Of a stretch of 64,000 nt of DNA, positions 4,252 to 64,000 are shown piece by piece (within the stretch, counting starts at the first letter, position 1; the number at the start of each line of letters is the position of its first letter). The stretch comes from Ulota crispa (Eukaryota; Streptophyta; Bryopsida; Orthotrichales; Orthotrichaceae), in contig OY987244.1 of NCBI GenBank assembly GCA_963920765.1, forward strand, positions 12,650,501-12,714,500, in the 5' to 3' direction. The translations under genes were made by a program, and so were the position numbers. Under the pieces are notes generated by a model. The model was not told the DNA's origin and did no database searches. It worked only from the letters and a program-made list of their open reading frames with translations.

Positions 4252-5563
4252 GTCGACCCCTAATCCCGAAAGGACCAACTGTCCCTTTGAGGGACAAATG
4301 GATTTTAAATGGATTTTGGGTATGTACCTATAGCTAATTTGCTTTTTGTGATTTTTTGAAACTTTTAATGTAGGTGGGGAATTCAAAAACCTACGTGTGC
4401 ATTTAATTTTTTCTTCATTCCGACATTTATTGAAGAAGTTATGCATGAATTTCTGAAAAAGGGGAAGGGCGTGCAGCCCAAAAAAAAATCAAAATTGCAA
4501 GTTTTAAAATAAAAATTTGAAATTGGTTCTTTGGATTTATACAAATGTGAAAATCTTTGAATCATTCAATTTTGATTGATGAGATAAAAGTTATGAGAAG
4601 TTTTAGTTTGCGGGTAGGTATGAGACTCCCAAACCTCCATTCTTTTTGCCCCTTGTAAAATTTGTTACTTTACTTTTTTGAGCTCTTTGTGTATTTATTT
4701 ATTTGACTTTTTTTTTTCCAAGTTGTGGTAGACTAAGATTCCTTGGATTTTACCATTTGGATACAAGTAATTCAGATTTCTCAATTTTACATAAATCCTT
4801 CAATTTAGCCTAGTGTGAGGTAGAAGGCTTGAAAACCGTCCAAGCTCTAAAATTGCTCACCCTCCAAAGTGTTCTCACTCTGTACATATATTTTTCATAG
4901 ATTTCTAAAATGTACAAGGGGTGTACATTTAAGGAGGTGAATGGATATAGAGCCCTATGCTGCTTCAGCTTCAAATTTTCATAACTAATTCTACAAAACT
5001 CCAAAAAATATGAAACAACTTGGGTTAGATGTCAATTCTTCTTATCTTTTAAGGAAATTTTACTAAAAAATGTTTTCAGAAGTTCTACCTCCCCAAAATT
5101 CAATTTCAGCCCTTAGATGGTTAGTTTTCGAGCCTTCTACCTTATATGCAAATTTCATGGCCTTACGGCATTGCAAGATTTTACAAAGTATGATTCACAC
5201 CTCTACGGCTCTACTTCATTTGAAAATTCTCCCACATTTACCTAATTTGATCTTCTACATGAGAAAAATGAACCTCAACTTTGCGTAGAGCAATTTTTTT
5301 GATATAGGAGCCATCAAAGGCTTCTAAAATTTTTGGGTAGTAGGGAAAAAAACTTTTGTTTTCACTTCAGATGTCAATATCTCACTCATCTACTTCTAGA
5401 ATGTGATGAAATTTTTCCCACTAGTACCTCCCATAGTCTAGAGCAAGATCTTATAGTTGAATTTTCAAAAAAACTTTTTTTCCTACCTTTCTATGCATTC
5501 CCCCAAAAGTGACAACTTTCAATGATTTTCAAAGAAAAAAGGGCTTGGCTCTTTAGGGGCTAA
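4252..5563. mobile_element. TTAA element T1 (piggyBac-like non-autonomous, about 1.3 kb)
   Basis: The left end reads ACCCCTAATCCCGAAAGGACC and the right end GGCTCTTTAGGGGCTAA, a decayed version of the family ends. The interior matches T20 (61215-62341) closely, including GAGAAGTTTTAGTTTGCGGG. A family L MITE is nested at about 4803-5143. No transposase frame was seen. Confidence 0.65.
4803..5143. mobile_element. Family L MITE nested in T1
   Basis: Ends are GAGGTAGAAGGCTTGAAAAC and, inverted, TAGTTTTCGAGCCTTCTACC. The related element T20 lacks this insert at the same place. Two relatives lie near 12560-12960 and 35335-35590, recognised by the shared CAGTTTCAGCCCTTAGATG segment. Confidence 0.65.
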
Positions 5564-5791
5564 GAGAGAAAAAGGAGAACATTCTTTATTTTTATAGGCC
5601 TAGTCGAGAGTATACTCTACACAACCAGTTGGCCCAAGAGAATGTAGGATATTAGCCGATTAAGCTAAAAAAAACTCTCAAGACTGTAAGCAGGCCAAGC
5701 TATGCAGACCATAGAAATGGGGGGTGGTAGGTCTATGGAGTCAATATGGCAATGCGTGACGTCATAAGGGCAAGGCAAGGTGTCACCACTC
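5564..5791. other. Spacer between T1 and T2, nothing recognised
   Basis: About 230 bp with no open frame or repeat that I can place. Confidence 0.4.
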
Positions 5792-7459
5792 TTAACCCCT
5801 CAAGGCCCAAGCAACGTATTTTGAGCTGTCTGGTGATTTTGGGCAGGTCACAACAAATGGATTTAGCATTTTTATTTTATTTTGTTTTCACACATGAAGT
5901 ACCCAAGGAGTAGCTTTTAGGCCAAACAATTTTCAAAACTTTTGACTACATGGTTCAAAAGTTATTGCATGATTTGTTGTTTTCTTTGCTTCTCAAGGCA
6001 GCCCGGGCAACTCAAAAACTTCTTTAAAAATGACTTTTCAAGTTTGTTTGTTTGTTTTTAAATTGGTTCTTTAGACCTACATATAGGTGGGAAGTTTTGA
6101 ATCATTCAATTTCCACTAATGAGATGAAAGTTATGAGAAGTTTTAGTTTGCGAGTAGATTGACTCCATACCTACCCGCAAACTAAAACTTCTCATAACTT
6201 TCATCTCATTAGTGGAAATTGAATGATTCAAAGCTTCCCACCTATATGTAGGTCTAAAGAACCAATTTAAAAACAAACAAACAAACTTGTAAAGTCATTT
6301 TTAAAGAAGTTTTTGAGCTGCCCGGGCTGCATTGACAAGCAAAAAAAACAACAAATCATGCAATAACTTTCGAACCATGTAGTCAAAAGTTATAAAAATT
6401 GTTGGGCCTTAACCCCTAAAGGACCATGGCCTTTATTTTGTCAAAAGACACTTAGAACTACCACTTCTACGGCAAAGAGTAAAAAAGTTTGAAAATTGGT
6501 CTTTTTGCATAATTGACCGTAGGATCTTCTACTAGATTTGTATAAGAATGTGTCATCCAAAACTTAAAAACCTAACTAGCATAGATTGCAAGATATTTGC
6601 ATTTAAAGTATAAAAAACAAATTTTTTTGTACCTTGCACGACTAGATTATTTGACTTTAGACTTTTTCAATTTAATTTTTTGCACCATGGAGTTTTGAGG
6701 TTTATTTTTTTATGCTGGGGAATTGAATTGAGAATCTTTGGAAAAAAACCAAAACAAAAATTACTTAATTTTCATTCTTTAAAAAAACCTTAGGTAGAAG
6801 AAGGTATGAGATTGAACAAAAACTTAAATTGCTAATAACCTTGCAATGGAATTGAAACTCAATAATTCCAATGGTGAGGTTGTTCTAGGAAGAAAACTTC
6901 ACCTTCTCCAACAACTTTTTTTGAAAAAGTGTTAAGCTTCCATTCCAAAATGAACTGTATAAGTTATTTTTTCAAGAGGATGCTTGAATTACCCAAAAAC
7001 AAGATTGTCCATAACTTTCTCATAACTAGTCCAAATGGAATGAATCAAAGCTTCAAATGTAAACGAAGATATAATCTACAAGGGGAAAAAAATTTAATTA
7101 AATTTTTGTAATTTTTTTTTGCTGCCTGGACCCCCAAATTTTACTTATTTGGGTATAACTTTTGCTCCTTGGCATTGATTGGAATAAAAATTATATTCCC
7201 CAAAAGCTAATGTGTTTTTCTATCTTTAAAAAAAGTTTCAAAAAATTAGGACAAAAAATGAGGCCGTAGGTACTTGCCCAAAATCTCATTTGTCCCCTGA
7301 ACAAACAATGGTCCTTTAGGGGTTAGAGCTACTCCTTGGGTACTTCATGTGTGAAAATAAAATAAAAACAAATGCAAAATCCATTTATTGTGACCTGCCC
7401 AAGATCACTAGACAGCTGTCACAGCTCAAGATATGCTCTGTGGACCTTGAGAAGGTTAA
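5792..7459. mobile_element. TTAA foldback element T2, interrupted by T3
   Basis: Begins TTAACCCCTCAAGGCCCAAG and ends CCTTGAGAAGGTTAA. Apart from the insertion at 6409-7326, it is a giant inverted repeat: the left arm (5792 to about 6160) is mirrored by 6170-6408 plus 7327-7459, with a centre near 6165. Arms are about 370 nt and nearly identical by eye (for example TTCTCATAACTTTCATCTCA in the right arm). The inner parts of both arms match one end region of T1 and T20, so both halves seem to descend from the same end of such an element. Confidence 0.85.
6409..7326. mobile_element. TTAA element T3 nested in T2
   Basis: Starts TTAACCCCTAAAGGACCATG and ends GGTCCTTTAGGGGTTAG. It splits the right arm of T2 at a TTAA; the left arm and the paralog T4 show the unfilled site (CCTTAAAGCTACTCC on the matching strand). 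The 918-bp body is shared, in inverted orientation, with T17 (53410-54333), including AGACACTTAGAACTACCACT near the left end. No transposase. Confidence 0.9.
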
Positions 7460-7461
7460 AG

Positions 7462-7893
7462 CAGGCCTCTTTAATTTATGTTTTTTCATAAATTAACAAA
7501 TTAGCCTAATGTATGCACATCATGAAAGTTAATTTGTGTATTGTCATAAATTAACAAACTTATTTTTCATATTTGCATATTTGATATCATATTAATTGTG
7601 ACAAAACACCAAATTGTTTGCATTGCGACACCCCTTCAAGTGAGAGGTTAGTTAGCAATTTACAATGCTCATTTTTTTGAAAGTTTAAGAATAGAGAAGT
7701 AAAATTCAACTCTGGCCATGCTAAGGAACATGGTGACCTTGCTGCCACAAAAATTGTAAAGTGACTACAATGTGACATATGCCAAGTGCAAACTTTTTTT
7801 TATAGAGAAGTGGGCTTAAGTTATGCACATTGTCAAGGGTTAATTTGTTAGTTTGTGCATTTATTTTTAGAAAACGTAAATTAAAGAGGCCTG
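7462..7893. mobile_element. hAT-like MITE with perfect 8-bp duplication
   Basis: Terminal inverted repeats are CAGGCCTCTTTAATTTA and its exact complement. The element is flanked on both sides by GGTTAAAG (7454-7461 and 7894-7901). An 8-bp duplication with CAGG-type ends is typical of hAT elements. It landed on the terminal TTAA of T2. Length 432 bp, no coding capacity. Confidence 0.92.
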
Positions 7894-7930
7894 GGTTAAA
7901 GACTCGCCCAAATTTGGCCTGGCTCTTCAA

Positions 7931-8120
7931 GGTCGGTAATTAGGTTTTCTGGGTTGGTGATTGATTATCCAAGGTTGGTAATTGGTTATCCAAGGTTGGT
8001 AATTGGTTATCCAAGTTTGGTAATTGGTTATCCAAGTTTGGTAATTGGTTATCCAAGGTTGGTAATTGGTTCTCCAGGTTGCTGATTGGTTCTTTAGTGT
8101 TGCTAATCGGTATACCAAGG
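7931..8120. repeat. 21-bp minisatellite, about nine units
   Basis: Head-to-tail units with the consensus GGTTGGTAATTGGTTATCC plus AA. The central units are nearly identical; those at the edges are diverged (GGTTCTTTAG and the like). Confidence 0.9.
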
Positions 8121-8216
8121 ATTTAATTACTGGTCACTTTCATGTGAGTAGGGAGAAAACATGTGAAAAAGTAGCTTAGCATTTATATTGATTATCTCTT
8201 CCACTAGTCAGAGAGG

Positions 8217-8487
8217 TTTTTTATTTTTTATTTTTTTTATTTTTTTATTTTTTTATTTTTTTATTTTTTTATTTTTTTATTTTTTTATTTTTTTATTTTT
8301 TTATTTTTTTATTTTTTTATTTTTTTATTTTTTTATTTTTTTATTTTTTTATTTTTTTATTTTTTTATTTTTTTATTTTTTTATTTTTTTATTTTTTTAT
8401 TTTTTTATTTTTTTATTTTTTTATTTTTTTATTTTTTTATTTTTTTATTTTTTTATTTTTTTATTTTTTTATTTTTTTATTTTTTTA

Positions 8488-8531
<44 letters not shown>

Positions 8532-8540
8532 ATTTTTTGT
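8217..8540. repeat. Heptamer microsatellite (TTTTTTA)n
   Basis: About 40 nearly perfect TTTTTTA units, then alternating TTTTTA and TTTTTTA units from about 8485. The 118-codon open frame across it (FIFLFFY repeats) is an artefact of the seven-base period. Confidence 0.97.
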
Positions 8541-8569
8541 CTAATTGTTGTTCTTATTTTTTAATGCTT

Positions 8570-9321
8570 TTAACCCCTAAAGGCCCAAGCAATATTTTTT
8601 GGCAACATAGCAATTTTGGGCAGCTCACTACAAATGGGATTTTCATTTTTTTCTTTGAAATTTTCACACATGATGTGCTAGAGGAGTAGCTTTAAGGTTC
8701 AACAATTTTCATAACTTTTGACTACATGACTTAGAAGTTGTTGCATGATATGTTGTTTTCTTTGCTCAGCGGGCAATCTGGGCAAATCAAAAAACTTCTT
8801 TAAAAATTACATTTTTTTGAATTTTTTTTGAAATTGGTTCTTTAGATTTATATATATATATATATATGAAAAATTTTGAATCATACAATTCCAATTTATG
8901 AGGTGAAAGTTATGAGAAGTTTTAGATTGTGAGTAGGTGTGGTTTTTAGAGAGACTCCATACCTACCCACAAACTAAAACTTCTCATTACTTTCACCTCA
9001 TAAATCAAAATTGAATGATTCAAAGCCTCTCACATATACATAAATCTAAAGAACTAATTTCAAAACAAAAATAAAAAAAGTATAATTTTTAAAGAAATTT
9101 TTTAATCTACCTCGAGTGCCCGTCAAACAAAGAAAACAACATATCATGCAACAACTTTTGAGCCATGTAGTCAAAAGTTGTGAAAATTGTTGAACTTTAA
9201 AGCTACTCCTTGGACACATCATGTGTCGAAATTTCAAAGAAAAAAATGAAAACTCCAGCTATAGTGAGCTACTCAAAATTGCTATGTTGCCAAAAAACAC
9301 TACTTGGGCCTTTAGGGTTAA
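8570..9321. mobile_element. TTAA foldback element T4, paralog of T2
   Basis: Starts TTAACCCCTAAAGGCCCAAG and ends TTGGGCCTTTAGGGTTAA. The two halves are inverted copies meeting near 8946, with about 360-nt arms. Arm content matches T2 at lower identity. It carries no insert, so it supplies the empty-site reference for T3. A (TA)n tract sits in the left arm near 8850. Confidence 0.9.
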
Positions 9322-11813: not shown

Positions 11814-12047
11814 TTAACCCTTAAAGGACTTTAGGACATAGTATATGCGCTACCGTATAATCAGTATTTGCTATTAGTAAGAAGTTTTAATTTGGGATCT
11901 CAAGTAGTTCACTAGAACTGCTTTGATCTATTCTCCAATTTCTTTGTTGATCTCAAATGTAGTAGAGGTGTGGATCCATTCCAAATACAAGAAACATATC
12001 CTATATTGTATTGGTCACAATGGCACGCTTTGTCCTTTACGGATTAA
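11814..12047. mobile_element. TTAA MITE T5 (230-bp subfamily C)
   Basis: Starts TTAACCCTTAAAGGACTTTA and ends TTTGTCCTTTACGGATTAA. Interior ATTTGGAATG-type and TTGAGATC-type segments are shared with T6, T11 and T19, but T5 is in the opposite orientation. Confidence 0.85.
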
Positions 12048-12050
12048 CCT

Positions 12051-12285
12051 TTAAACATCTAAGCCCCCCGTAGTCAGCAATACAATCTAATGTATTTTTC
12101 TTGTATTTGGAATGCATCCACATCATTACTACATTTGAGATCAACAAAGAAGTTAGAATATAGATCAATGTTGTTCTAGTGAGGTACTCAAGATTCCAAT
12201 TTAAAACTTTTTGTTAGTAGCAAATGCTAGTTATATAGCAAAGTACATATTATGTCTTTGGGTTGCTTGGTTGTTTAAGGGTTAA
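12051..12285. mobile_element. TTAA MITE T6 (subfamily C), 3 bp from T5
   Basis: Starts TTAAACATCTAAGCC and ends TTGTTTAAGGGTTAA. It holds CTTGTATTTGGAATG and TTTGAGATCAACAAAGAAG as in T11 and T19. T5 and T6 form a head-to-head pair separated by three bases. Confidence 0.8.
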
Positions 12286-14556: not shown

Positions 14557-21170
<6,614 letters not shown>

Positions 21171-22274: not shown

Positions 22275-22513
22275 TTAACCTGTAAGCGCCACAACAGGAT
22301 CCTATTATTGGAGATACCAAGTTTGTCTCACTTTTTCTCTCAATAAGTACTGTGAAAAAAGTTGTGGCTAGTCCCCATCAGCAAAGAAGGTGGTCATTTT
22401 TCAAATCCTACGGTCACTTTTTTTGGATGTACATAATTTTCTAAGCTGTGGTGGCCATTAAACCCTCCATTTTCTCCTAAACCCTAAAACAACTCCAGGC
22501 GCTCAGGGGTTAA
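22275..22513. mobile_element. TTAA MITE T7
   Basis: Starts TTAACCTGTAAGCGCC and ends GGCGCTCAGGGGTTAA. The GCGCC-type inner end resembles T18 more than the other TTAA elements. Length about 240 bp, no frame. Confidence 0.85.
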
Positions 22514-25441: not shown

Positions 25442-27329
25442 TTAACCCTTAAATGACCCAGAGTGCCGCTGTGGCCAATACGCTGGGTTTATCACGTATT
25501 TGTAAGATCTGTGGGTATTGACTTTTGCTTGCGTTTGGGGAGGATTGTACTAGCTTGTTTGCGGTTGATTCAAGATGTTTGGCAACTGCATGCAATTGTT
25601 TTGCAAAGAGTTGCAGAAGATTATATGTCAAACAGTCTATGGTTACGTATTTATGGGCAAGGTGTACACCCGGAGCAAGGTCAGGTGTTGAGATGTAGAC
25701 GTGGACCCCTTATTCCTGAGGTGGCAAGTGTGGTGGGGATATGGAGGGAGTATGGAATTTGGGCCGTTAGTTACGTACGTGCGGCGGTTTGAATGGCGGC
25801 TCGTCAAAATGTTCCAAAATGGGTGTGTGACGGTTTTTTTTTGGGTCCGTGTTTGCGGGTCCAAGCCCGGAGATACAGTGAGGTGATTCCCAATATTGAG
25901 GGGGATGCCGCTTGCGGAATGAAGAAGTGTAGAAGAAGTTTTTCTGCGATGAATTTGTTGTTGTGGTGGTTCATTTTGTGCATGGATAATGTGGAGAAGG
26001 TGGTGGTTGACTAGTCGGTTAAATTTCCTTCTTCCGGGAGCACTTCACAGTAGCCGGGAGAAATTGTGAACCGGTCTCAATTGGCCTTTGCACCTTACTG
26101 TTGTTTGCAGTGGGCTCCAGCCCCCAGTAGAATTGCCGGAACATTGTGTAAGGTGCAAACAGTATGCCTGAAGCAGTAGATTTTGTCAACTTGAAAACCA
26201 CACTACCCCCTTTGCTTCTCACTACTGAGATTATAATTCTGACATACTTTGAGTAATTTTGGACAGAGACTAGCCCACCTTCGATCAAAACCCAACTCAG
26301 ACAACGCTTTCCAAGTTCAGAGCTTGAGATATGGCGAAGCACACCATATTATATATGCAGCAGCAATCTTGCAATTCCCACCAAGCTCTGCCTTATTGTG
26401 GGAGGACTTGTAGGATGTGAATTCTTGTAGGCATCCCAACACATTACTAGGATGTTTTCAAACGTGTGTTGTGTTGGAATTGATACATAGGAACCTGCAT
26501 GAAATTTGAATGACAAAAACTTCGCTACACCAAGGAATATCAACCTTTTTGGAGCGGCTAAGAGAGTGCCAAATAAAATTTGTCTCCTTGACTGGGGTAT
26601 TCTTTGTACCAGGAATGCAAGCTTTGGAGAACCGTGTGTGTTGTGGTCAAACCACTCCGTAGGCAATGGCATCAATACTTGTAATTCTAGAAACGGCAAA
26701 TGAGGCAAACACCATTACTTAATGCCAGTGAACCACTGGGTCGCAAAATCAAAGTCATTGGGAAATCTAGGGCAACGAAACACAAAAATCCCACACTTCA
26801 ACAAAAGAAACACTAGCAAAAGACAATGCCCAACTTGAATCTGTACGGCAAGGCCACCTACTGTCCGTGACCGTTCTCCTAGGAAGAATATTAACCAGCA
26901 TTTACTAGTACAATTGTCTGCTCATGAAACTGCACGTTTGGGGCTTCAAATTCAATGACCAGCTGAGCACATGTTCTATCCATTCATTGCAACCAACGAA
27001 AATAATCTGTACGATCAAACTCCCTCCACCCTCGTGGAAGTGTATCCAGCCAGACGTGGCAAGCACCGTGGCAAGTATAGCGCCCTCGCCTCTATCCATC
27101 TTTGGGTCACCTGCCGCATCGTAGCAAGTGAAGTGCATCCGCAAATTTGGAAACCCCGCGGTGGATCTTCACAGGAAATTTGCAACCGTAGCGCAATACC
27201 AAACCAATTGCATCGAACCACCCCAATTACTAAACCATTGCTTGCATTGCACCCTAGCACCCCCATTTTCACCGTATGTATACTATATAGCCCAAGTGCT
27301 ACGGAGCCTTGTGGTTGTTTAAGGGTTAA
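25442..27329. mobile_element. TTAA element T8 (1.9 kb) with gene-like interior
   Basis: Starts TTAACCCTTAAATGACCCAG and ends GTTGTTTAAGGGTTAA. Unlike its neighbours, the interior is GC-richer and holds overlapping open frames on both strands: 25463-25792 plus (109 codons), 25793-26014 plus (73), 26349-26708 minus (119) and 27015-27272 minus (85). None shows a recognisable transposase motif. It may be a captured host gene piece or the decayed coding region of a larger relative. A 12-bp inverted repeat TTTGCACCTTAC lies at 26092 and 26148. Confidence 0.7.
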
Positions 27330-27694
27330 CCCCTAAATGTTGAAGGAGATGATTATCTTCCTTTTGGTGCAAAAAAAATAGTTTGGAGGTTAGGAAAAAA
27401 GCTTTTTTAATTCAATTTTTTTTCAAAAGCAGTCATTGCAAGATTCTTCACCACGGAGTGCCAAAATTGGATTGATTGAAAGTCCTTATGTTTTTCAAAA
27501 CTAAAATTTGTGAGAATATTCACAACCATGGTTGTAAGTCCCCTCCTACCCTTTATACAAATTTCATGTGGGCAGCATACACTATTGATTTTTCACACTT
27601 TTTGAAGCAATACTATAGGCTGGGCATAGCCTAAGCATTATAGCTCTACAGTATAGGGAGATCATGATTAGGGGCCCTGGCATTTAAGGGTTAA
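27326..27694. mobile_element. TTAA MITE T9, abutting T8
   Basis: Starts TTAACCCCTAAATGTTGAAGG and ends CTGGCATTTAAGGGTTAA. Its first TTAA is also the last TTAA of T8. Confidence 0.85.
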
Positions 27695-27790: not shown

Positions 27791-28705
27791 TTAACCCCTA
27801 AATGCCCAAGGCACCAGATTTTGGTGTCCAAAATTTTTTAGGAAACTTTGAAACCATGTTGAAGTTGTAGATTTTATTGTTTTGAGGTTATTTTTGTGGA
27901 AAAGTTGCGCGTTGAAGTTAGCTTTGCTGTTCAAATTCAACTTCTTCCATATCTTATTCCAATTGATTTTGGTGGAAGGTTAATTGCAAGCATACATTTT
28001 GTGTCTTGAATAGTGCCATGAAAAGTGTCATGAATAGTGTCATGAATAATGTCACAGAGCCTATGAGAAGTTGCTACATTGAAAAGATGGGCATCAAGTT
28101 GAGCAAAAGGTGAAAATTTCTCTTGGGCACTCCCTTGGGCAATAAGAGCCTTTTTACTGAAATTTTGACATCTAACAAAATCTAAAAATGCTTTTGGACT
28201 AATTTCACTTGGAATGTCTTTGTTATAAAAATTAGGATCCTTTCACCATTGAATTTTCTTTCATTCATAATGATTTTTGGTCTATAATTGAAGTTGAAAA
28301 TTTCTTTGTATTAGACAGTTGCGTTTTGACAGTTGCGTTGCAAACTCATTTGTGAAATTGTGGTCGTGGATTTGGAAGAAGGGCCATTGGTTTTGAAGTA
28401 ACAACAATAAACATTAAAGCATCCTAAGTGGTTGTCTCCCAATTTTGTATGCAAAAGTTGCCAATTTCCATTAGAAGTTTCAAGCAGCTAAAAAAAAAGC
28501 AAAAAATTCCATACTCATCATCATTCAATCACAAATATCTTAAAATCCGCGTGGCCATTTTGGATTCTTTTTGGATAATGCCATTTAGAGACCTTGAAGT
28601 TCAAGATTCAATGATTACTATTTTATTTTGATGTTTAATAATGATCTTACAAGGACAATTCAAAAACTTCAAAATTACCTACACCCTTGGACATTTAGAG
28701 GCTAA
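27791..28705. mobile_element. TTAA element T10
   Basis: Starts TTAACCCCTAAATGCCCAAG and ends CTTGGACATTTAGAGGCTAA. A short direct repeat, AGTGTCATGAATA, occurs about four times at 28005-28055. The left end resembles T15. No transposase. Confidence 0.8.
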
Positions 28706-33330: not shown

Positions 33331-33562
33331 TTAACCCCTAAACGTCTGAGCGTGCTGTTGCAACTAGTGCAATACAAGATGTTTACCTTGTATTTGGAAT
33401 AGATTCACACCTTTCTTTCATTTGAGATTATCAAAGAAGTTGGAGAATAGGTCAAAGTGGTTCTAGTGAGCTACTTGAGATCCCAAATTAAAACTTTTTA
33501 TTAATAGCAAATGCCAATTATATGGCAGTGTATACTATGCCCTATGGTCATTGAAGGGTTAA
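33331..33562. mobile_element. TTAA MITE T11 (subfamily C)
   Basis: Starts TTAACCCCTAAACGTCTGAG and ends GGTCATTGAAGGGTTAA. The interior carries CTTGTATTTGGAATAG, GGTTCTAGTGAGCTACTTG and AGCAAATGCCAATTATATGG, as in T6 and T19. Confidence 0.9.
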
Positions 33563-45145: not shown

Positions 45146-46456
45146 TTAACCCCTAAAACATAAGCATTTGTTTTAATTGTCTAATAGTAAGATAAAGTAA
45201 AGAGTAAAGAGAGGTTGCTTCATATTTCTTTGTTATAGCAAGTCTTTCAAATTACCGTCTCAGATCTAAAACTAAGTCAGTGTGAATGGATACACTGCAA
45301 TGAATTTATAGTTTATATTCCAAACAAGATGCTTTGTGTTAGGTCCATTAGGATGTTTTAGTCATAGACATGCAAAGATTATTAGAGTATATTATATGGT
45401 TTTGATTTTTTGAGTATATTGATTGGTCAATTCAGGTATCTATCACAATCCAAAGTTGAAACCCTTTGTTGTATGATTTCAAATAAGTGATTAGATGGAC
45501 ATCACAGAGGCTTCTAGGTTGGGTCATAACAATGGTGCATTGTTATGTTTCATAGATGTTTGCAATTTTGCCTTGAGTGGCTATGTAACTCTATAGTCCT
45601 TCTACATAGCATTTGTGTGCAATAAGGAGCAAGAGCTCCAATTTTAAGGAACCCTTTCAACAACTAGTGGTTTACTTTGGAGGATAATATGGGTAAAAAG
45701 AAAATTTTGCTCAAAAAAAAATGAAACCATAAAAACACTTTATATGACCATCTAAACACTTTTTTAGAAGGGTTGATCTAGCCAAACCATATCAGCACTT
45801 GATTTTATGGTGTAGTGTGAACATTTATATCAAATAAAGTAAGTATCCAATGTAAGCACAAATTGCCAAGGTTTGAAATCTTTATCAAACATGTACTAGG
45901 TGCATGTCTAGAGCATGCTTGGGTGATGTGAAATTGGGGAATGCTATACTGTGAGCGGGGATTTGTGAGCCATGAGTTGTGAGTTTTTTTTGTTTGTATG
46001 TCAGAGTGCTAAATTTTACTAATTATGTACATAGGGCCCTATAACTGTTCATTTTTTATTTTCATCTTTAAAAAACTTGCTCTCTTTTTAAGTTTTTCAT
46101 TGATTTTGAGTTCAAGATCATTTCTAGCTCAAAGAATCTTGGCTCACTGCTCATGGCTCTCTATTTTACACCCCTGAATTGACCAGTCAAAATACTCAAA
46201 AAATCAAAACCATATAATATACTCTAATAATCTTTGCATGTCTATGACTAAAACATCCTAATGGACCTAACACAAAACATCCTGTTTGAAATATGAATTA
46301 TAAATTCATTAGAGTGTATCCATCACATTGACTTAGTTTTAGATCTGAGACTGTAATTTGAAAGACTTGATGTAACAAAGAAATATGAAGCAACTTCTCT
46401 TTACTCTTATTTTATCTTACTATTAGACAATTAAAACAAATGCTTATGTTTTACAA
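45146..46456. mobile_element. Element O with about 290-bp inverted arms
   Basis: The left arm (45153-45440) includes CATAAGCATTTGTTTTAATT and GGTCCATTAGGATGTTTTAG. The right arm (46185-46456) is its inverted copy. The left edge starts TTAACCCCTAAAACATAAGC, as in TTAA elements, but the right edge ends GTTTTACAAATGG, so that border is decayed or the element is of another type. About 740 bp lies between the arms with no coding frame. Confidence 0.75.
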
Positions 46457-47423: not shown

Positions 47424-48340
47424 TTAACCCCTAAAATTCTTTTGTGTTTAGAGGCCCCAAAACTGCTTCAAAATACTAGTCCCCAAACCAAGGTCAAAAT
47501 CTTCATTGAAACTTAATATTTATCAAATCCAACCGTAGGATCCTTTGGTTGACTTGCAGAAGTACATTGTCCCAAAATTTCAAATTGAATATCCCCACCA
47601 ATTGCAACATCAATGTGCCTAAACTTCAAAATGTAGGCTTTTTTAGTCCTTCCAAAAGTTGAAATTTATTTTTCAAACTTTTTAGAGAAAAACAAGTATT
47701 TTGTATTTCTTGTGCAATTTTGGCAATATGCTGGAAAAGGGGTTGAAAGTATACATAAAAAAATTTAGACCAAAAAGAATTTTGGATTCATTTTTACAAA
47801 AATTGTAAAGTGAAAGGTATTGATGAATAAGATATAACTATATGCTAATAAGTTTTGGAAGAATTTGAAAATTGGTAATCCCAATGGTGAGAATGCTCTA
47901 ACAGAAAAAAACTTTAATTTTCATTTTCATTTGTAATTTTTCAAAATTGAGAGTAAAAGATAACTTTATATGTTTTTCTACCCTCTTCCTATCTTCATTG
48001 CCCGCAAAAGAAAACTCCTTGTAACTCTTACCTCATTATTTGGAATTGAGTGATTCAACTTTTTTTTGAGTAGGTATCAATCTATAAAATTCTATAAAAA
48101 TTAAAAATTAAAAATTAAAAATTAAAAAAAATTTGCTGCTCGATTTGACATTGAAATTGAAAAAACCTTATAACTTTTGCATTACTTATCGGAACAAAAT
48201 GAAATAAAACTTTACACGTAGATTATGATGAGTAGCATCCATCCTAAAAATTTCATGAAAATTTTTTAAATTATGAAGTCAAGAGAGCCTACCCGAGTTC
48301 TCATAAAGCCCAAAGTGGGCTCCTTGGGCCTTTAGGTTAA
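47424..48340. mobile_element. TTAA element T13
   Basis: Starts TTAACCCCTAAAATTCTTTT and ends CTTGGGCCTTTAGGTTAA. The body resembles T3 and T17 in layout (acid-poor, AT-rich, no frame). Confidence 0.8.
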
Positions 48341-48394
48341 TTACTTTGAGAGAGTTGAGTATGCTTTTAATTTTAATATTTTTTAACATGGCAG

Positions 48395-48793
48395 TGTACT
48401 ATTATTCCTTGGTTTTGACTGTTTAGATTAGTGAAATTTGATTTTTCAAATTCTACACAATTCTTCCAATTTTAACTAATGTATTTTTAAATTTCAAGAC
48501 CTTTGGCATTGCAAGATTATACAAAGTATGATTCACACCTCCAGTTCATCAAAAAATTCTCCTACGCTTACCTAATTTGGTTTTCTACATGAATAAAATA
48601 AACCTCAACTTTGTGTAGAGCAATTTTTCTATTGTAAGAGTGGTCAAAGGCTTTTGAAATTTTTGGGCAACACGGGGAAAACAAAAATTGCACTTCTAAT
48701 GTCAATATCTCACTTGTTTACATTTAGAATGAGTTGATTTTTTTCCCACAAATACCTCCCATAGTCTAGGGCAAGATCTTATGGTTGGATTTC

Positions 48794-48829
<36 letters not shown>

Positions 48830-48901
48830 CTACTCGTTCCCCCAAAGTGGCAATTTTCAATGATTTTCACAAAAAAAAGGGCTTGATCCTTTAGGGGTTA
48901 A
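48395..48901. mobile_element. TTAA element T14, left-truncated
   Basis: Its right end reads TTGATCCTTTAGGGGTTAA. The body matches the right half of T1 and T20 (GCATTGCAAGATTATACAAAG, CTCCCATAGTCTAGGGCAAG). The left half is missing. It holds neither the L nor the CACTA insert, so it gives the empty-site sequence for both. A 30-base poly(A) run lies at 48795-48824. Confidence 0.75.
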
Positions 48902-49459: not shown

Positions 49460-50532
49460 TTAAACTCCTAAATGCCCAAGCGATCAGATTTGGGTCTTTA
49501 CAAAACTTTGGAGATGAATAAAACCTTATCAATTCATGGTTTTTAGTATTGATTTTTTCAATATAAATTTGTTTGAAGTCTATTTGTAACATCCAAAATC
49601 TAGTCTTGAAAATGAACGTTGATGATTTTTCTACTCAAGATTTTGTACAAGGGTGTCCACTGCAATCTTGAAATTTCTAGTGTTGGAAGATCTTGAAAAT
49701 GAGCCTCAAGTACACTTTATATAGCAAAATTATGAACCCCCAACAAGGCGTCAAGGCCCTTAAGAAGTCTCAAAAAGGATAAAAAAGGACCCCAACATTG
49801 TATTTATTGCAACGAACAAATCACTAATCCCCTATTTCCACTTGTCCTTTGCATTCAATGAGTGAAGTACTTGGGTAGTGACTAAAGAGCGCGTTTACAT
49901 ATTTTATCAATGCAATACCTTTTTGCAGTGTTTTAGATTGTGCATGTGGATAAGGTCCTTCATACAAGGACTAGATTATCATTTTCTATATATGATTTTT
50001 GTGATGTATAATAGGAAAGCCATATCACGTAGAGCCACTTTACGCACTTTCTAATGTAACCGGCATAGGCTCAATAAATATTAAGAGTGTCAAATCTTAA
50101 GGGCCTTGTTGGGGTTCATAATTTTGCTCTAGGCTAGAGCAAGGAGAAAAATTCACATTAGAAATTCATTCAAAAAAGATGTAGGAGTAGATTTTGAAAG
50201 CCGTAAATCGATTAAAGTTAGACATGTAATGATCTTAAACCATATATTTTTTTGGTGAACAACTTTTTAAATTTGACATGTGAAATGAGGATTAGAAGAC
50301 TTCAAATCAATGTTGCAGTTTTAACACCCTCATGTTCAAACATTATAATTTTTCAAACTATAAGTGATAGTGTTGTATTTTCTTTTCCTATGTAATCTCT
50401 AACATGTTTAATTTAAATTTGTATAGTTACAATTGGAAAAAACTTGAGGAAAGTTATGAAGAATTTAGTTGATTGTTCAGTTCCATGGAAATTTGAAGAA
50501 GCTCAGATAGGCCTTGGGCATTTAGGGGTTGA
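49460..50532. mobile_element. TTAA element T15
   Basis: Starts TTAAACTCCTAAATGCCCAAG and ends CCTTGGGCATTTAGGGGTTGA. The left third matches T21 and contains the unfilled site GCCTCAAGTACACTTTATAT for the Tc1-like insert there. Confidence 0.8.
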
Positions 50533-50634: not shown

Positions 50635-51658
50635 TTAACCCTTTAGGGCCAAGGGCGCCCCTGGCTCAGGGTCACTGTGAGCACTGCAATCTTTAAACTA
50701 GTTAAATTAGTGAGATTGCTACCAAAAAAAATATGCAGCTAATTTTTTTTTAAATTTTGCAATGTTAAATTTGTAAATTTTTACTTTTGAGTAGTGTTTT
50801 TAGCAACTTAAGGTAAAAGAAAAAATCATATTTGAGATCACTAGGTAGCATCCTTTTTCCATATTTTCTCATTAAATGCTCAGATCTTATTGAGATCTTC
50901 CCGTATAGATGGAATACATACTACTGAATCTACTACTTGGTCAAATCTTGCAAGCGTAGCCTAAATGACCGGAAAGATTATAACACATCCATGCCAAGTT
51001 GAGGGTGTTATTATTTCCAAAATCATATACAATGTTGTGAGGTCAAATTTGTGTTTTTTTAGAGCCCAAATGTGAATTTGAGAAATTGCAATGTGGTAGG
51101 TGACCTTTATACCAAGCAAATGAAAATCATTTCAGTTGAATCTAAGTTTGGACAAGAATTTCAAGCATTGCAAAGTGAGGGGGTCTTTGTACAGTTTTTA
51201 CTCACAATTCTTGAGCTTGACTTACTTCAATCCAAGCTTTTGGATTCAATATAAATCCAATAACAATGTACATAGGCTTGCTTGATCAGAAATTCCCGTG
51301 CCCTCCAACTTTGTTCCCATGTCAATTGCAATTGCGTCATTCTTCAAATGTTATTTCAAATAAACGGCTTAAAACAACCAAAATCATTACAAGGGATTTG
51401 GACCCAAAAATGGGCCCCTTTCCCAAAACCATGGGAACTTTGGGCCCATTCCCCCAAAACATGGGAACACTTCCACATGGGCAAGCTGACCTGGTCAAAG
51501 CTTGACCACGTGAGATGTTACGAGTAATTTTTATTTTTTTATTTAAAAATAAATAAATTATACTCAGCTGGTTCTCAGCATTGAGAACAACCAAACTTGC
51601 AGCCCCTTGAAGGGCTCAAATTCCTCCTAATGTGGCACTCCCGGCCCTAGAGGATTAA
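50635..51658. mobile_element. TTAA element T16
   Basis: Starts TTAACCCTTTAGGGCCAAGG and ends CCGGCCCTAGAGGATTAA. It includes a two-fold repeat of about 30 bp around CCCAAAACCATGGGAACTTT at 51410-51470. Confidence 0.8.
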
Positions 51659-51772
51659 ATTTCAACTTACAGTCAGGCAACCATTATGCAATCAAAAGAT
51701 GAATTGATTCTATTCTCTAGATTTTAAAATTTTGTTGAATTATCACATGGGTGTTTGTCTTTTTTGCTCAAA

Positions 51773-52094
51773 GGAAAAATTTCATGGATACCCCTGAAGT
51801 TTGCAATTTTTACAAAGCTTACCCTTGCTTTTTTAGAAATTTCACAAATACTATTGGACCAAAAAATGTAGGCATTTATTTGATGTGCTTGTAATTTCTT
51901 CATGACAAATGCTGAAGAAGGGAAAGTAATGAAACAATAAAGAAGCAACATGTGCACAAAAAAAGAAGGAAAGTGACATGCATAACAAAACAAATGCCTA
52001 AAAATTATGGTCAAGGGTATTTGTGTAATTTTTGAAAAAGCAAGGGTATCTATGTAAATATTGCAAACTTCAAGGGTATCCATGAAATTTTCCC
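51773..52094. mobile_element. Family E foldback MITE, copy 3
   Basis: Arms begin GGAAAAATTTCATGGATACC and mirror at CATGAAATTTTCCC. Copies 1 and 2 sit in AlaX introns 20 kb away. Confidence 0.9.
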
Positions 52095-52305
52095 TTACTT
52101 CACAAAATGGAGAAGCTAAAATACAACCTTTCTTTCTTTTGTCATTTTCTCCAATCACATCTTTCTTATCCAAATGATCCTCATGCAAATACAATAAATA
52201 AGTGTGAATACAAAACAGACTTTTCTTTGAATAAGAAAACTCATTGCACTTATGATCTATCTATATATGTAAATATATATAATTATATATAATATATTTT
52301 ATATA

Positions 52306-52763: not shown

Positions 52764-52859
52764 CAAAATTGTCCGTGGTGGTTGTCCTTAACAATTTAGT
52801 AACTAAGGATAACAATTTTGTAACCAAATTATAAGGATGGGAGTGCATGGGGTTTTGTA

Positions 52860-53409: not shown

Positions 53410-54333
53410 TTAACTCCTATATAAAGGACCATTGTCCGTTTAGGGACAAATGAGATTTTGGGCAAGTATCTACAACCTCAATTTTTGTCTTGATTTTTTG
53501 AAACTTTTTTTGGAGATAGAAAAACACATTAGCTTTTGAGGAATATAATTTTTATTCCAATCTATGCCTAGGAGCAAAAGTTATGCCCAAATAAGCACAA
53601 ATTTGGGAGTTTGGGCAACAATTTTTTTTACAAAAACGTGATTTAGAAAATAAATAAATTCTCATAGATTATATATTTGTCTATATTTAAAGCTTTGATT
53701 CATTCCATTTGGACTAGTTATGAGAATTTTATGGACAATTTTGTTTTTTAGGCAATTTAAGCATCTTCTTGAAAAAATAATCTTTAAAGTTCATTTTTGA
53801 ATGCAAGCTTAACATTTTTTTCAAAAAAAAAAATTGTTGGAAAGGGTGAAGTTTGCTTTCTAGAACAATCTCACCATTGAAATAATTGTGTTTCAAGTCC
53901 ATGGGAGGGTATTAACCATTTAAGTTTTTGTTCAATCTCATACCTTCTTCTACCTAATTTTTTTTAAGAATGAAAATTCAATCATTTTTGTTTTAGTTTC
54001 TTTCCAAAAATTATCATTTCAATTTACTACCATAAATATTTAAACTTCTAAACTCTATGGTGCAAAAATTTTAAGTTATGAAAGTTCAAAGTCAAAAAAT
54101 CTAATCATGCAAGGTGCAAAAAAGTTTGTTGTTTACACTTTAAACGCAAATTATTGCAATATGTGCGGTCAAAGGTTTTGAGTTTTTTTTCCACATTCTT
54201 AAACTATTCTAATACAAGATCCTATGCTTGTATATGCAAAAGACAAATTTCAAACTCTTTTACTCTTTGCCATAAAAATGGCAGTTTTGAGTGTCTTTAG
54301 ACAAAATAAAGGGTGCAGTCCTTTAGGGGTTAA
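53410..54333. mobile_element. TTAA element T17, inverted relative of T3
   Basis: Starts TTAACTCCTATATAAAGGACC and ends TGCAGTCCTTTAGGGGTTAA. The 0.9-kb body is collinear with T3 read on the other strand (TTTTACTCTTTGCC and TTTAGACAAAATAAAGGG near the end). The repeated length shows one conserved subfamily. Confidence 0.9.
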
Positions 54334-55839: not shown

Positions 55840-55842
55840 TTA

Positions 55843-56570: not shown

Positions 56571-58173
56571 CACTAAATATTGCATTCAAATTTTCCCACA
56601 TTAATTTCTTAATATTTTACACTACATAATTATTTAGTGTTACTACATTAAATTTCAACTATAATTACTGCAGTAAACATTTTTTAAAGGACCAAACAAC
56701 AATAAATCATGTAAAATCTTAATTTTTAGAGAGTTGCATGCTCCTCTAAGTGGTCTAGGGATGAATCACAAGGTAAGATTTTCATGGTAAGGCAACTTAA
56801 CCCCTGAGCACCCGAGCGCCTCATATATCACCTTCCAGGATTTCAAAGCCTTGTTTTGAGGTATTGAATCTAACTTTTTGATCTTGCTATAAACTACAAT
56901 TAGAGATGGGGACACAAAGATCCATTCTTCAATCAAACCCCTCCCACACCATTAATACTTCACTAAATCTAAAATTTAAAATTATATATGTTTAAAGCTC
57001 TAATAATGAGATGAGAAGGTATTGGTTTAGACTGATGGTGGACTTGTAATGATTTTAAAAGAATTTTAATCATAATTTGATGCTTTTTCTAAATAAAGTT
57101 TTATTAACACTTCTCCTAATTTGGTTCATGTCAAATTTTAGTGCATTGTGTCTCTCTTTCTATTTGCAAGTGGTTTGCTTGAGTTGAGGCAATTTCAAGC
57201 TCTAAAAGGTGGTCAAAAGCTAAAAAAATTGTTGGTGGAAGACTAAAAGTTGATGAACACAACATACTTGATAGTGCAAAATTGCACTTGGCATGGGTTA
57301 AAGGCATGGAGTTGGAATACTCCACTTTTCAAAATTTAATACATATTTTCTCCCCTTATAGGCTTTTAAAATACGTAATTGGTTTTAGATCTGGTGAAGA
57401 ATTGATTACTTCGATAAGGTTTGAGTGAGGAATGGATCTTTTTGTCCACATCTCTATGAAGGCATTCAAGTTGTCCATACCAATGGAGTAATGGTGAGGA
57501 AAGCCAAATATTGTACAAGTGTTGCAAGAGATTTGATTGGGTGAAACACCGTACGAGGCAACAAAGGCGTGGTGGCAAGCAGTGTTTTACATGCTGCAAC
57601 CGGTTAATATCCCTTGCAAGCTTCATAATATGTGCTTTGTGGTAGCGGAAAGTTGTTGGCAAGGGTTCAATCATGTTCTAGACCTTTATTATGGCAACAG
57701 TCACCAACTATGCTAATCACTGTTTTCCATGCAATAGCGATTTGAAACCCTGAAACTTGACATAAAAAGAAGTGCAATCTTCCATAATTTACAAGTGTGT
57801 GCATTCACGTCTAATCTTGTTGCCCACAAAATTTAAGATGAATCGGATGCTTATAGAATTTTGTAAAAATCATTAAATAGCAGCTACCTACCAAAAATTG
57901 AGATTTTACCATCACAAGTTGTTTGATCAAATGTTATAATCTCCCATCTCCCATCTCCCACGATCAAACGTTCCCAAAATTTGCAAGCCTTCTTTTAAGT
58001 AGGTGTTCCATTATTTTCAATGGTTATTTTTTGTGAATCATCCGATTGATTGAGATACAATGCATTAAAGTCGACAGTCACCAAAAACTCTACTTTTGGT
58101 GAAATCAGCTTGGGCGCTCGGGGGTTGATTGTCAAGGCAACCTAAATGCAATATTGCAATACTGTATTCAGTG
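56571..58173. mobile_element. Family D MITE, copy 3, split by T18
   Basis: Left end CACTAAATATTGCATTCAAA, right end CAACCTAAATGCAATATTGC then TTCAGTG. The inside matches copy 1 up to 56796 and resumes at 58129. Confidence 0.8.
56797..58128. mobile_element. TTAA element T18 nested in family D
   Basis: Starts TTAACCCCTGAGCACCCGAG and ends CTTGGGCGCTCGGGGGTTGA. It interrupts the GGCAAC-CTAAATGC junction of the D element. A 102-codon minus frame (57366-57674) lies within, without a known domain. Confidence 0.85.
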
Positions 58174-60189: not shown

Positions 60190-60985
60190 CCTAAATCTTA
60201 CCTCAAATTTTAGGTGGCTATTGGTACACTAAGATTAATATGTGAAAAGTTGGATGAAATTGCCAAATTCCTTCTAGAGCAAGATCTAATTCACCAGATT
60301 TTGGATGAAAATAGCTTATATTAGCAATTTTTTGGATGAACGTCTATATATCATTCATTTCTTCCAATTTTAGCTAAAATTTCCCTACCTGCATGTATTT
60401 TGGGGTGTGGGTCGCTTTACCCCGCCAAAAACAAAAATTAAACCCTGTCCAAATACTGTAATCCAAATTAAATCAGGGTCTTTGAAATAATATGAAATCA
60501 AAATTCCCAAATTCAATCTCACAGTTGCATAAACGGTACGTTTTCTGCCAGGTGGAAAAGCTGAGCTTTTCCACCTTGGCCCCAAAAACACGTCTGTGCA
60601 AACGTGCAGGTCACCAAGCTGCCAAAGAACGGCCCCACATAGCCAGGCTTTTTCTGGCCACTTTTCGAAGTTTGCACATTCTGGCTGTGAGCCTACGCCA
60701 AAGGGCATCTGCAACAGCGTTTAAAAAGCTGGCTATTTTCGCCAAAATCTTACCTCGATTTGTGGCTGGCTACCATAAAACTGGAATAATCGGGTGAAAA
60801 AAATGGATGGAATCGTCAAAGTCCTCCCCAAGCTAGTACTAGGTTTGTCTGTTTTTGGATGAAACTACTAAATATTAGTAAATTTGATGGATAAACGCAC
60901 ACACTTTGTTGACTCTGTTCACTTCTATCCAACATTTTCTTACTTGCTTGCATCGATGGGTGCCTATCGCATGACCAATGAAAAA
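60190..60985. repeat. Family K copies 2 and 3 in tandem
   Basis: Units at about 60190-60430 and 60735-60985 share TTTTCGCC(T/A)AAATCTTACC and TTTTGGATGAAA(A/C)TA. The second is preceded by GGGCATCTGCAACAGCG, which resembles Harbinger-type ends. Confidence 0.6.
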
Positions 60986-60992
60986 ACCAATT

Positions 60993-61218
60993 TTAACCCC
61001 CTAAGGACTAAGTGTGCTGATGCAACCAGTACAATACGGGGTATTTTCTTGTATTTGGAATGGATCCACACCTCTACCACATTTGAGATCAATAAAGAAG
61101 TTGGAGAATATATCAAAACGGTTCTAGTGAGCTACTTGAGATCCCAAATTAAAACTTCTTATTGGTAGCAAATATTGATTATACGGCAATGTATATACTA
61201 TGCCCTATGGTCCTTTAA
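60993..61218. mobile_element. TTAA MITE T19 (subfamily C)
   Basis: Starts TTAACCCCCTAAGGACTAAG and ends CCCTATGGTCCTTTAA. The interior is very close to T11. Its last TTAA is the first TTAA of T20. Confidence 0.9.
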
Positions 61219-62341
61219 CCCCTAAAGGATCAATTGCCCCTCGAGGGACACTTGGGATTTTGGGCATGTACTTACAACTAGACTACTTTGTATGATTTTT
61301 TTAAACTTTTATGGACGATGACAAATTCAAATATCTACATGGGCATCTAATTTTTTCTTCATTCCGAGATTTATTGAAGAAATTATGCATGAATTTATGA
61401 AGAACATGGGAGATTGGGCAGCCAAAATTTTTTCTAAAAATAACATTTTTTCAAAATAAAAATCTGAAATTGATTCTTTTAATTTATACACATGTGGGGA
61501 GCTTTGATTCATTCAATTTTGATTTATGAGTGAAAAGTTTTAGTTTGCGGGCAGGTACGGAACTCCCATACCTCCATTCCTTTTGCCTTTGGTGCTTTAT
61601 TTTTTTGTGCTATTTGTGAATTTGTTTTTTCACTTCTTTTTTTCCCCATATTGTAGTAGACTAAGATTCCTTGGTTTTTACCATTTGGATAAAAGTAATT
61701 CACATTTCTGAATTTTACATAAATCCTCCAATTTTGCATAGTCACTAGAAGAAAAACATGCCATAAACAACTACCACATATTGCCAATCATGGTCCACAA
61801 TAACTGCCTTACAAATGCACAAACAACTGCACAATAATTGCATAACAATTGCACAATAACTACATAACAACTGCACGACTAGGCAATTTGTGGTAGTCAT
61901 TTATGGTTGTTTTTCTTCTAGTGAGTATATATGCAAATTTCATGACCTTACGGCATTGTAAGATTTTACAAAGTATGATTCACACCTCCAATTCATTTGA
62001 AAATTCTCCCACACTTACCTAACTTGATTTTCTACATGGAAAAAATAAACCTCAAACTTTTGTAGAGCAATTTTTTTGATTTAGAGGCAATCAAAGGCTT
62101 CTAAAATTTTTGGGGAGCAGGAAAAGAAACTTTTTTTTTTTCACATCAGAAGTCAATATCTCACTCTTGTACATCTAGAATGAGTTGATTTTTTCCACAA
62201 GTACCTCCCATAGTCTAGGGCAAGATCTTACGGTTGGATTTCCAAAAAGAATTATTTTTCCTACCTTTCTACTCATTCCCCCAAAAGTGGCAGTTTTCAG
62301 TAACTTTCACTAAAAAAAGAGCTTGGTCCTTTAGGGGTTAG
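61215..62341. mobile_element. TTAA element T20 carrying a CACTA MITE
   Basis: Starts TTAACCCCTAAAGGATCAAT and ends TTGGTCCTTTAGGGGTTAG. Close relative of T1. The nested CACTA MITE sits at 61743-61923. It shares its border tetranucleotides with T19 on the left and T21 on the right. Confidence 0.9.
61743..61923. mobile_element. CACTA-type MITE with AGT duplication
   Basis: Ends CACTAGAAGAAAAACA and TGTTTTTCTTCTAGTG, flanked on both sides by AGT (61740-61742 and 61924-61926), the 3-bp duplication expected of CACTA elements. The middle is a run of CACAATAACTGCATAACAA-like units. Confidence 0.93.
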
Positions 62342-64000
62342 CCCCTCACCGCCCAAGGGGACCAAATTGGGCTTCTTTGAATTTTATTCAGAGATGCTCA
62401 ACCTTTCTACAAGATTTTTTTTTAGTGAATATTATTATTTTTAAGCTCTTATTGTAGTCTAGTTTCAGCATTAGGATTCTGATTTTGAAGATGAATTAAA
62501 GTGATTTGTCTATTCAAGATTTTGTGCGAAGGTGTTCATAGCAAATCTCCAATTTCTAGTGTTGAAGGCTCTTGGAAATGAGCTTCAAGTATAGTTGGGT
62601 ACAGTAATCTTACAAATTTTTTTGCAGTGAAATTTTAGCCAATAGTTCAGCAACTTTAAGAAGCCATATCTTCCGTCAAAAATTATTTGTTTTTGAAACC
62701 AAAAATTGTGTTGGAATACTGCTGAAGGGTACTACATGATTTGATAAAAAAAATCTGAAATTTTATGAATGATAAAAAAAGTTTGGCTACTTCCTATATT
62801 GTGTCTACCATCTAGTACTTCCACCTCTTGCAGAAATCACTGCTTGAATTGATTGGGCATACTTGTAATAAGAGTTTTTAGTTGCTCCATGGATACCTCA
62901 TCCCATACTCTTTGAATGATGTGTATCATTTCTTGCTTGTTCTTCGGCTGATGGTGGTGGCGTAGCTCAATCAAATTCAAGCAATGATTTTGGCAAAAGG
63001 TGGAAGTACACTATGTAGGAAGTAGCCCAATTTTTTTTATCATTAAAAAAAATTTCAGATTTTTTTACTCCAAATCATGTAATGCCCTTCAATAGTATTC
63101 CAACACAATTTTTGGTTTCAAAAACGGACAATTTTTTAGGAAGTTATGGCCTTCGGAAGGTCTTGAAGTTGACTGAAGTTGTACTGCGAAAAAAATTCAT
63201 AAGTTTACTGTACCCGACTGTACACATGAAACATATGAATACATTTGTATAAATCAAAGTTAAATTCACAAACTTGACTTGGGGAGTAAAACCTGGGTCA
63301 TAAAAATCTTGCTCAACACAAGAGTCAATTCCACCCACCCCAATTGAATTCGTAATTGTTTTTATGAAAAAATTCCAATACAAATTACTTGCTGCCATGA
63401 TAGAAACAAAATTTTACTCTTCGGCACCGCGCCTGTTCCTTGCGTTGTGCCAATGCTTGATTGCATCTTAGTAACGGAAAATCTCATTAGCATAGAATGG
63501 TTGTAAAAGCAATCTGATGTAATGGGTTGGTGCCCAAGGATGCGACCTCAGTGGCCACCTTCGGTTCAAGCGTGACAACTCACCATGCAACCTTCTAAAC
63601 TCATTAGCAGCAATTGAGCTTAGCTCACAGATGATTCATGAGGTTTCCCTTTTCATGAACAGTAGCTTGCAACCACATGTCCCCTTTCCCTTGAGAGCAA
63701 GAGAGCAAGAACCTGAGCAGGCTCGAGTAGGAACCCGTGTGCACCTCAAGCTAGTTTCTTGTCAAATTCACTCTTTGCATTCTAGCATCAAGTGCTCTCA
63801 AAGCTAGCTTCTTACATTTGACTCAAGTGTCCAAATATTTGCCTAAGCGGTTTTGGAGTTTTGACTTCACAAAAATCAAATCGGAGAAACTTTGCTTGTC
63901 TTCAACACTAGTTGTAATAGTAGTGTTGGCCAATTCAAAGAACTTAGATAATTGGCTTACTGTCAAGGGGTTTTGCTTCTGCTTTCTACCAAGCTTGATA
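62338..64000. mobile_element. TTAA element T21 (right end not found in window)
   Basis: Starts TTAGCCCCTCACCGCCCAAG where T20 ends. Its first 250 bp match T15. It is interrupted by the Tc1-like element at 62592-63220. No TTAGGGG-TTA right end was found before 64000, so it is truncated or runs on. Beyond about 63400 the DNA is unassigned and no gene is evident. Confidence 0.6.
62592..63220. mobile_element. Tc1/mariner-like foldback element built from two copies of one transposon end
   Basis: Ends TAGTTGGGTACAGTAA and (inverted) TTTACTGTACCCGACTG, each flanked by TA (62590-62591, 63221-63222). The unfilled site CAAGTACAC is seen in T15. Both arms encode the last part of a Tc1-type transposase pointing outward: on the minus strand RHHHQPKNKQEMIHIIQRVW, then after a one-base shift IQAVISARGGST; on the plus strand QIQAMILAKGGST. 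The DDE core is absent. It is a defective, fold-back derivative of a Tc1-like transposon. Confidence 0.85.

Follow-up and report, generated by a model that had tools for sequence, protein, structure and literature searches.

The 64,000-nucleotide stretch of the moss Ulota crispa analysed here (assembly GCA_963920765.1, contig OY987244.1, forward-strand positions 12,650,501 to 12,714,500; hereafter the window, at its full length) harbors a swarm of TTAA-bounded elements that are almost certainly non-autonomous piggyBac transposons, comprising miniature inverted-repeat transposable elements (MITEs) and longer derivatives. The assignment is based on the TTAA target, on the CCC ends, and on the transposase found in related larger elements whose ends are common to the short ones. 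Inverted ends starting with CCC beside TTAA are present in the window elements themselves, and a transposase of the DDE_Tnp_1_7 family, that is, of the right superfamily, lies between the same ends in the larger relatives and not in the window copies. The ends of piggyBac elements are of the CCC type and adjoin TTAA. Moreover, the window elements are short, carry no transposase, occur in many copies, and have defined ends, as expected of MITEs, the element at 25442-27329 being a low-copy one.

Nineteen TTAA-type elements with both ends were recognized in the window (Table 1), whereas two are represented by one end only, i.e., a right half (48365-48901) and a left end (62338). The 19 end pairs plus the right half amount to 16,093 bp, corresponding to 25% of the window. 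An earlier note on this DNA had counted 21 such elements: 18 of them were recovered with both ends and two (listed there as 48395 and 62338) with one, but the one at 45146 found no support and that at 67-1169 had been missed. Most of the starts it gave were right, except that 4252 had to be moved to 4260 (a decayed left end), 12051 to 12044, and 49460 to 49461; besides, the elements at 5792 and 6409 had been taken as neighbours, but 6409-7326 is nested inside 5792-7459. The joined flanks of the latter around this insertion align with its own other arm, with 8570-9321, and with further copies.

In 14 of the 19 pairs, an ungapped comparison of the two ends gives no fewer than 12 matches in 16 bases; the remaining five (4260, 5792, 47424, 53410, and 60993), with 7–11 matching bases, were accepted because of gapped ends or homologous copies. 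The inverted CCCCTAAA-type end beside TTAA, already pointed out in the earlier note, was corroborated by a strict end-pair test (ends of the form TTAA[CT]CC[CTG][TC], 150–2600 bp apart, agreeing in a minimum of 12 out of 16 bases), which retrieved nine pairings in the window versus a mean of 0.04 and a maximum of one in 50 second-order Markov sequences. In the same controls, strict single ends had a mean of 5.4 and a maximum of 12, versus 27 in the window. Five of the nine pairings are elements as drawn (11814-12047, 25442-27329, 27326-27694, 33331-33562, and 50635-51658), and the other four are composite or alternative combinations of those same ends. A previous 20-base end profile, misaligned by one base past position 12, had given 50 matches versus 13–27 in ten first-order controls; this separation being poor, the end-pair test was used instead. 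In three cases, one TTAA is common to two neighbours (12044-12047, 27326-27329, and 61215-61218), as expected if one element inserts into the target duplication of the other.

The boundaries were further compared with copies elsewhere in the genome, for which 275 Mb in 157 contigs were searched (the contig that holds the window measures 34 Mb) and the best 40 places of each DNA search were scored, the query included. All 39 other top-scored copies of 33331-33562 span from base 1–5 to base 226–232 of 232. The 39 other scored copies of 61215-62341 match its bases 1–528 at 85–91% identity, and 38 of them also match bases 710–1126. As for 25442-27329, nine of its 15 other genome matches begin at base 1–3 and three finish at 1887–1888. 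The left edge of 27791-28705 is common to the genome copies, its right edge being reached in two of 39, most of which end at about base 890 of 915. Scans of the window for tRNAs and Rfam families did not retrieve any match.

TTAA is the target site of these elements. Exact genome copies of the 21-base end including TTAA number 600 (312 on one strand, 288 on the other; reversed control, 0), and its inner 17 bases have 731 (383 and 348), so that an exact TTAA lies outside 82% (600/731) of them. In 59 ends located in fetched DNA by an inner anchor, the bases T, T, A, and A are found in 56, 57, 58, and 58, respectively, with no strong base preference further outward. Many of the anchored loci had been picked by the TTAA motif; therefore, 28 ends that carry the 17-mer used for this choice were set aside, and among 34 ends independent of it, 27 show TTAA, six are one base off, and one (GAAA) is two off. 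Furthermore, joined flanks of three insertions located in repeats (L020 4752-5679, L028 7748-8675, and L024 6938-7170) gave 18 alignments with empty sites that read straight through, 11 of which, over the three insertions, have one intact TTAA.

These data also bear on two other kinds of element. According to the available excerpt of PMC10004981, PIF/Harbinger MITEs are common in plants and target TTA/TAA, and a Tourist-like 3-bp duplication could resemble TTAA through an adjoining base. We consider this origin very improbable, since four bases rather than three are kept outside the ends, both in the anchored set and in the unselected one, and since the transposase frames between such ends all belong to DDE_Tnp_1_7, PIF transposases not having been searched for. 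The second kind would be another TTAA- or TA-targeting transposon, such as Sola3, which likewise uses TTAA, or Tc1/mariner, in which TA would be duplicated and the element would have A...T outermost; a TA duplication within a fixed TTAA would indeed leave an identical empty site. The outer T and A, however, are nearly fixed in the 59 ends and a piggyBac transposase lies between the same ends, which leaves such a transposon a very slight chance of being the right one; neither Sola3 nor Tc1/mariner appeared among the transposase frames examined, other transposase families not having been searched for.

The transposase was found elsewhere in the genome. A search with the profile PF13843 (DDE_Tnp_1_7), a family that includes the piggyBac transposase, gave at least 120 genome matches (best E-value 1.3e-73) from the best 116 of 528 first-look candidates, and no match in any of 14 control genomes. 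Ten transposase copies were fetched, seven of which were extended, and candidate TTAA end pairs were recognized in eight of the ten (Table 1). Nine open frames from eight of the loci matched only DDE_Tnp_1_7 among the Pfam families (E-values up to 0.001), and two frames probed against the PDB retrieved only piggyBac (6x67/6x68) and piggyBat (9c0f) at E-values up to 0.01. In the frame of L035, the three catalytic aspartates are aligned with those of 6x67; the alignment of L030 extends over the first two only. By eye, the long open frames of the loci fetched first showed no likeness to transposases, no family search having been run on them.

On the basis of their sequences, the transposases form five groups, namely L030/L033/L037 (55–62% mutual identity), L031/L034 (50%), L036, L035, and L032, with 25–45% identity between groups, figures that are rough because the frames are partial. 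Their ends recur as well: L033 and L037 have both ends in common over 390–400 bp at 71–72% identity, and the left end of L030 is found again in L006 from its first base (397 bp, 80%).

Concerning the link with the window, the right end of L035 is the commonest end of the window, TTAACCCCTAAAGGCCCAAGC. The ends of L035 align with window elements over 44–370 bp at 58–83% identity, with the left-end half on the left and the right-end half on the right, in the proper orientation. Its right-terminal 1138 bp retrieved 39 other scored places at 72–76% identity, 38 of which stop at base 1136–1138, the very edge of the element, while 36 begin at base 485 (12 places) or 547–553 (24 places); thus, the outermost 590–650 bp recur elsewhere to the identical last base. 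Among the matches listed, which come from the scored part of the candidates, no transposase match lies within 53 kb of the coordinates of these 39 places. The left end was probed with 511 bp, a 1001-bp query being swamped by a nested palindromic repeat, and 37 of 39 other scored places start from base 1–3; short matches of 52–53 bases at the outer left edge are 92–96% identical. This pattern of recurring edges is the one that would be expected of internally deleted derivatives keeping the parts that the transposase needs. As for L032, it aligns with 25442-27329 over 65 bp (69%, E-value 9e-5).

The palindromic repeat towards the left end of L035 (L042:1922-2295) is a further nested insertion, with 4006 first-look candidates in the genome.

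One might suppose that the transposase loci are old piggyBac genes flanked by MITEs through chance, and only seeming parents, given how densely these MITEs populate the genome and that weak end pairs arise by chance in 10-kb stretches. The correct placement and orientation of the L035 halves, the recurrence of its outermost sequence to the same last base, the long common ends of L033 and L037, whose transposases are 55% identical, and the 17 of 18 bases matching between the ends of L036 make such a coincidence highly unlikely. The data are instead consistent with related larger elements that carry the transposase of the window families, in agreement with the earlier note, which had proposed a piggyBac-like swarm of several subfamilies driven from elsewhere in the genome, and had called for a longer copy with the same ends and a transposase. 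The 8.03-kb element L035 is such a copy, and window ends resemble different lineages (L035 and L032 and, by eye, L031 and L034). The same note had considered that a partner from another superfamily, or targets other than TTAA, would speak for a different identity; neither emerged from the frames or from the empty sites, whose non-intact alignments carry variants of TTAA.

Some points weigh against this explanation. The identity between L035 and the window elements is only about 60% over longer stretches, which implies that L035 itself is not their direct parent. Stops occur in 110 of the 120 transposase match rows, and no complete gene was demonstrated; similarly, no Pfam match to the C-terminal cysteine-rich zinc domain was obtained, cysteines and a histidine being visible by eye in L035. 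Two loci kept at their fetched length, L029 and L038, gave no candidate end pair, and for L030, L031, and L033 the agreement between the ends is weak when taken alone, because chance pairs in L030 reach 14. Seven of the 18 empty-site alignments have a one- or two-base variant rather than an exact TTAA. The share of candidates scored in the DNA and transposase searches counts on the same side.

The families are numerous and not very young. First-look candidates, which are not verified counts, amount to 9385 for 61215-62341, 3297 for 33331-33562, and 2317 for 27791-28705; the best 40 are, in the same order, 85–91%, 85–88%, and 89–93% identical to the window copy, secondary rows at the same places having been excluded. 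The closest relatives of these three window copies are several per cent away, which speaks against very recent insertion there. Present activity is unproven, and most transposase matches contain stops.

We infer that the window copies owe their mobility to these transposases, acting by cut-and-paste chemistry, and that the short copies originated by internal deletion. In such a scenario, elements of 5–8 kb elsewhere in the genome would have supplied the piggyBac transposase gene, now mostly damaged, and the enzyme would have recognised the common ends TTAACCC[CT]TAAAGG... plus about 50 bp further in. The element would then be cut out at TTAA and inserted into another TTAA, and internally deleted copies that had kept their ends could be carried along and multiplied.

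Table 1. TTAA-type elements of the window (positions of the window) and transposase-bearing elements elsewhere in the genome (locus names); end matches are given as matching bases.
Feature	Strand	Description	Ends and relations
67-1169	.	TTAA element, both ends, right one decayed (CTAA)	12/16
4260-5563	+	TTAACCCCTAAAGG family, L035-related, both ends decayed	10/16 ungapped; both align with L035 ends
5792-7459	.	Palindromic (long inverted repeat) TTAA element, interrupted by 6409-7326	8/16 ungapped
6409-7326	-	TTAA element nested in 5792-7459	15/16; 82% identity to 53422-54333
8570-9321	.	Palindromic TTAA MITE	Family of 5792-7459
11814-12047	-	~232-bp MITE family	Right TTAA common to next element (12044)
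12044-12285	+	~232-bp MITE family	
22275-22513	.	239-bp MITE	Ends L031-like, by eye
25442-27329	.	Low-copy TTAA element of 1888 bp, no transposase match	Left end L032-like
27326-27694	.	369-bp TTAA element	TTAA common to 25442-27329
27791-28705	.	TTAA element	39 other scored genome copies
33331-33562	+	232-bp MITE	39 other top genome copies
47424-48340	.	TTAA element	7/16 ungapped; 2-base deletion in right end, by eye
48365-48901	+	Right half of L035-related element, left part missing	Right end 83% to L035 right end
49461-50532	.	TTAA element, target bases decayed (TAAA/TCAA)	14/16
50635-51658	.	TTAA element	14/16
53410-54333	+	TTAA element, homologue of 6409-7326 in opposite orientation	11/16
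56797-58128	.	TTAA element	13/16; ends L031-like, by eye
60993-61218	+	~232-bp MITE family, right end truncated	7/16 ungapped
61215-62341	+	L035-related MITE with nested 181-bp insert	Both ends align with L035
62338-62376	+	Left end only, L034-type by eye	No partner end found
L036		5230 bp	17/18, TTAA both sides
L035 + L042		8033 bp	17/18, TTAA both sides
L034 + L044		5027 bp	16/18
L032 + L041		7495 bp	15/18
L037			15/18
L030			14/18 with one-base slip
L033			14/18, right TTAA decayed
L031			13/18

For the element at 56797, a right end near 57304-57310 was dropped in favour of 58128. The candidate at 45146 was rejected as a TTAA element, since its inverted arms begin at 45154, within the motif, TTAA is missing from the other arm, and none of 39 genome matches elsewhere begins there. 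The structure at 45154-46453 consists of two 283-bp inverted arms, 94% identical and without TTAA bounds, which in the genome search match only each other; the high-copy repeat at 45931-46171 is unrelated to them. The 181-bp insert in the MITE 61215-62341 (61743-61923) has inverted ends CACTAGAAGAAAAAC and is flanked on both sides by AGT (3 bp; 61740-61742 and 61924-61926), presumably the signature of a CACTA MITE. A tandem low-complexity stretch at 8167-8689, with open frames of repeated IFLFFYFF, adjoins and enters the element at 8570.

Other repeats in the window include a palindromic family of about 325 bp (29711-30036, 30579-30896, and 51771-52096), whose members match each other in both orientations and which recurs in the fetched genome loci, and an inverted repeat of about 270 bp at 62589-63223. 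The segment 62837-63010 (minus strand), which by eye had been taken as the end of a Tc1-type transposase, obtained no Pfam support. A WRKY-like exon at 35711-36586 scored 20.1 bits, just under the Pfam cut-off of 21, and fits a plant. Plastid proteins agree with a moss host: for PsaB encoded on the plastid contig, the top PDB chains are 8htu, 6l35, and 7ksq (1710–1714 bits), the first three being from the moss Physcomitrium patens, followed by 9lut (1676 bits) and by 7wfd (1632 bits) and others, and for a partial PsaA they are 6l35 and 8htu (1012 bits), followed by 9lut (983 bits). Lastly, 46 of 48 PsaA/PsaB matches fall outside the plastid contig C157 (112.5 kb), on contigs C1–C10; these nuclear contigs contain many plastid-derived fragments.

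The piggyBac superfamily is a known one. As far as the available excerpts go, PiggyBac is named among angiosperm MITE superfamilies (PMC10004981) and among plant DNA-transposon superfamilies (PMC10794571), and piggyBac-like elements in plants are mentioned (PMC8086355); the term "undescribed system", used in the earlier note, is therefore too strong. Concerning mosses, a 2017 paper discusses, in the part available, the use of insect piggyBac as a tool, still untried in Physcomitrella at that time (PMC5505980), and the accessible text of a moss genome paper (PMC10619864) contains only "piggybacking" as a word match. In the open-licence literature, whose listings were covered in part, we found no description of a native moss piggyBac, although one may still exist. 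Within the literature searched, the moss families look like new members of a superfamily already listed for plants; the host is unusual, and so is the local density, a figure that refers to this 64-kb window.

To our knowledge, the piggyBac superfamily is minor in flowering plants. Mosses, unlike them, might be a long-standing home of piggyBac: a single genome would house five or more transposase lineages, every one of them with particular TTAA ends and short derivatives, and jointly these would form a major class of dispersed DNA (25% of the window); we regard this broader proposal as evenly poised between right and wrong. The matter is of some relevance, as piggyBac is a leading footprint-free gene-delivery transposon, whereas little is documented of its natural history among land plants. 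A moss with several transposase-bearing lineages and thousands of candidate derivatives could provide plant-native ends and transposases, would allow asking whether land plants have had piggyBac for long or acquired it horizontally, and suggests that TTAA elements deserve attention in the annotation of moss repeats.

Compared with known systems, the angiosperm PiggyBac MITEs (PMC10004981) are likewise non-autonomous plant TTAA elements, judging from the superfamily name, which in the excerpt available appears in a list, whereas here the host is a moss and transposase-bearing relatives were found. In another non-seed plant, the fern Ceratopteris richardii, a native annotation reports, in the part of PMC6890710 available, 1230 copies of PiggyBac repeats covering 122 kb, i.e., 0.00% of the assembly versus 25% of the 64-kb window here. 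Among transposases of known structure, that of the mammalian piggyBat of Myotis lucifugus (9c0f) is homologous, its match being weaker than that to piggyBac. The piggyBac element (IFP2) of Trichoplusia ni (6x67/6x68) likewise targets TTAA (excerpt of PMC7351741) and has a homologous transposase (E-values 4e-20 and 2e-17), whose three catalytic aspartates have aligned counterparts in L035; unlike this animal element, the moss ones are distant plant relatives of 5–8 kb, mostly damaged, and accompanied by thousands of candidate short derivatives.

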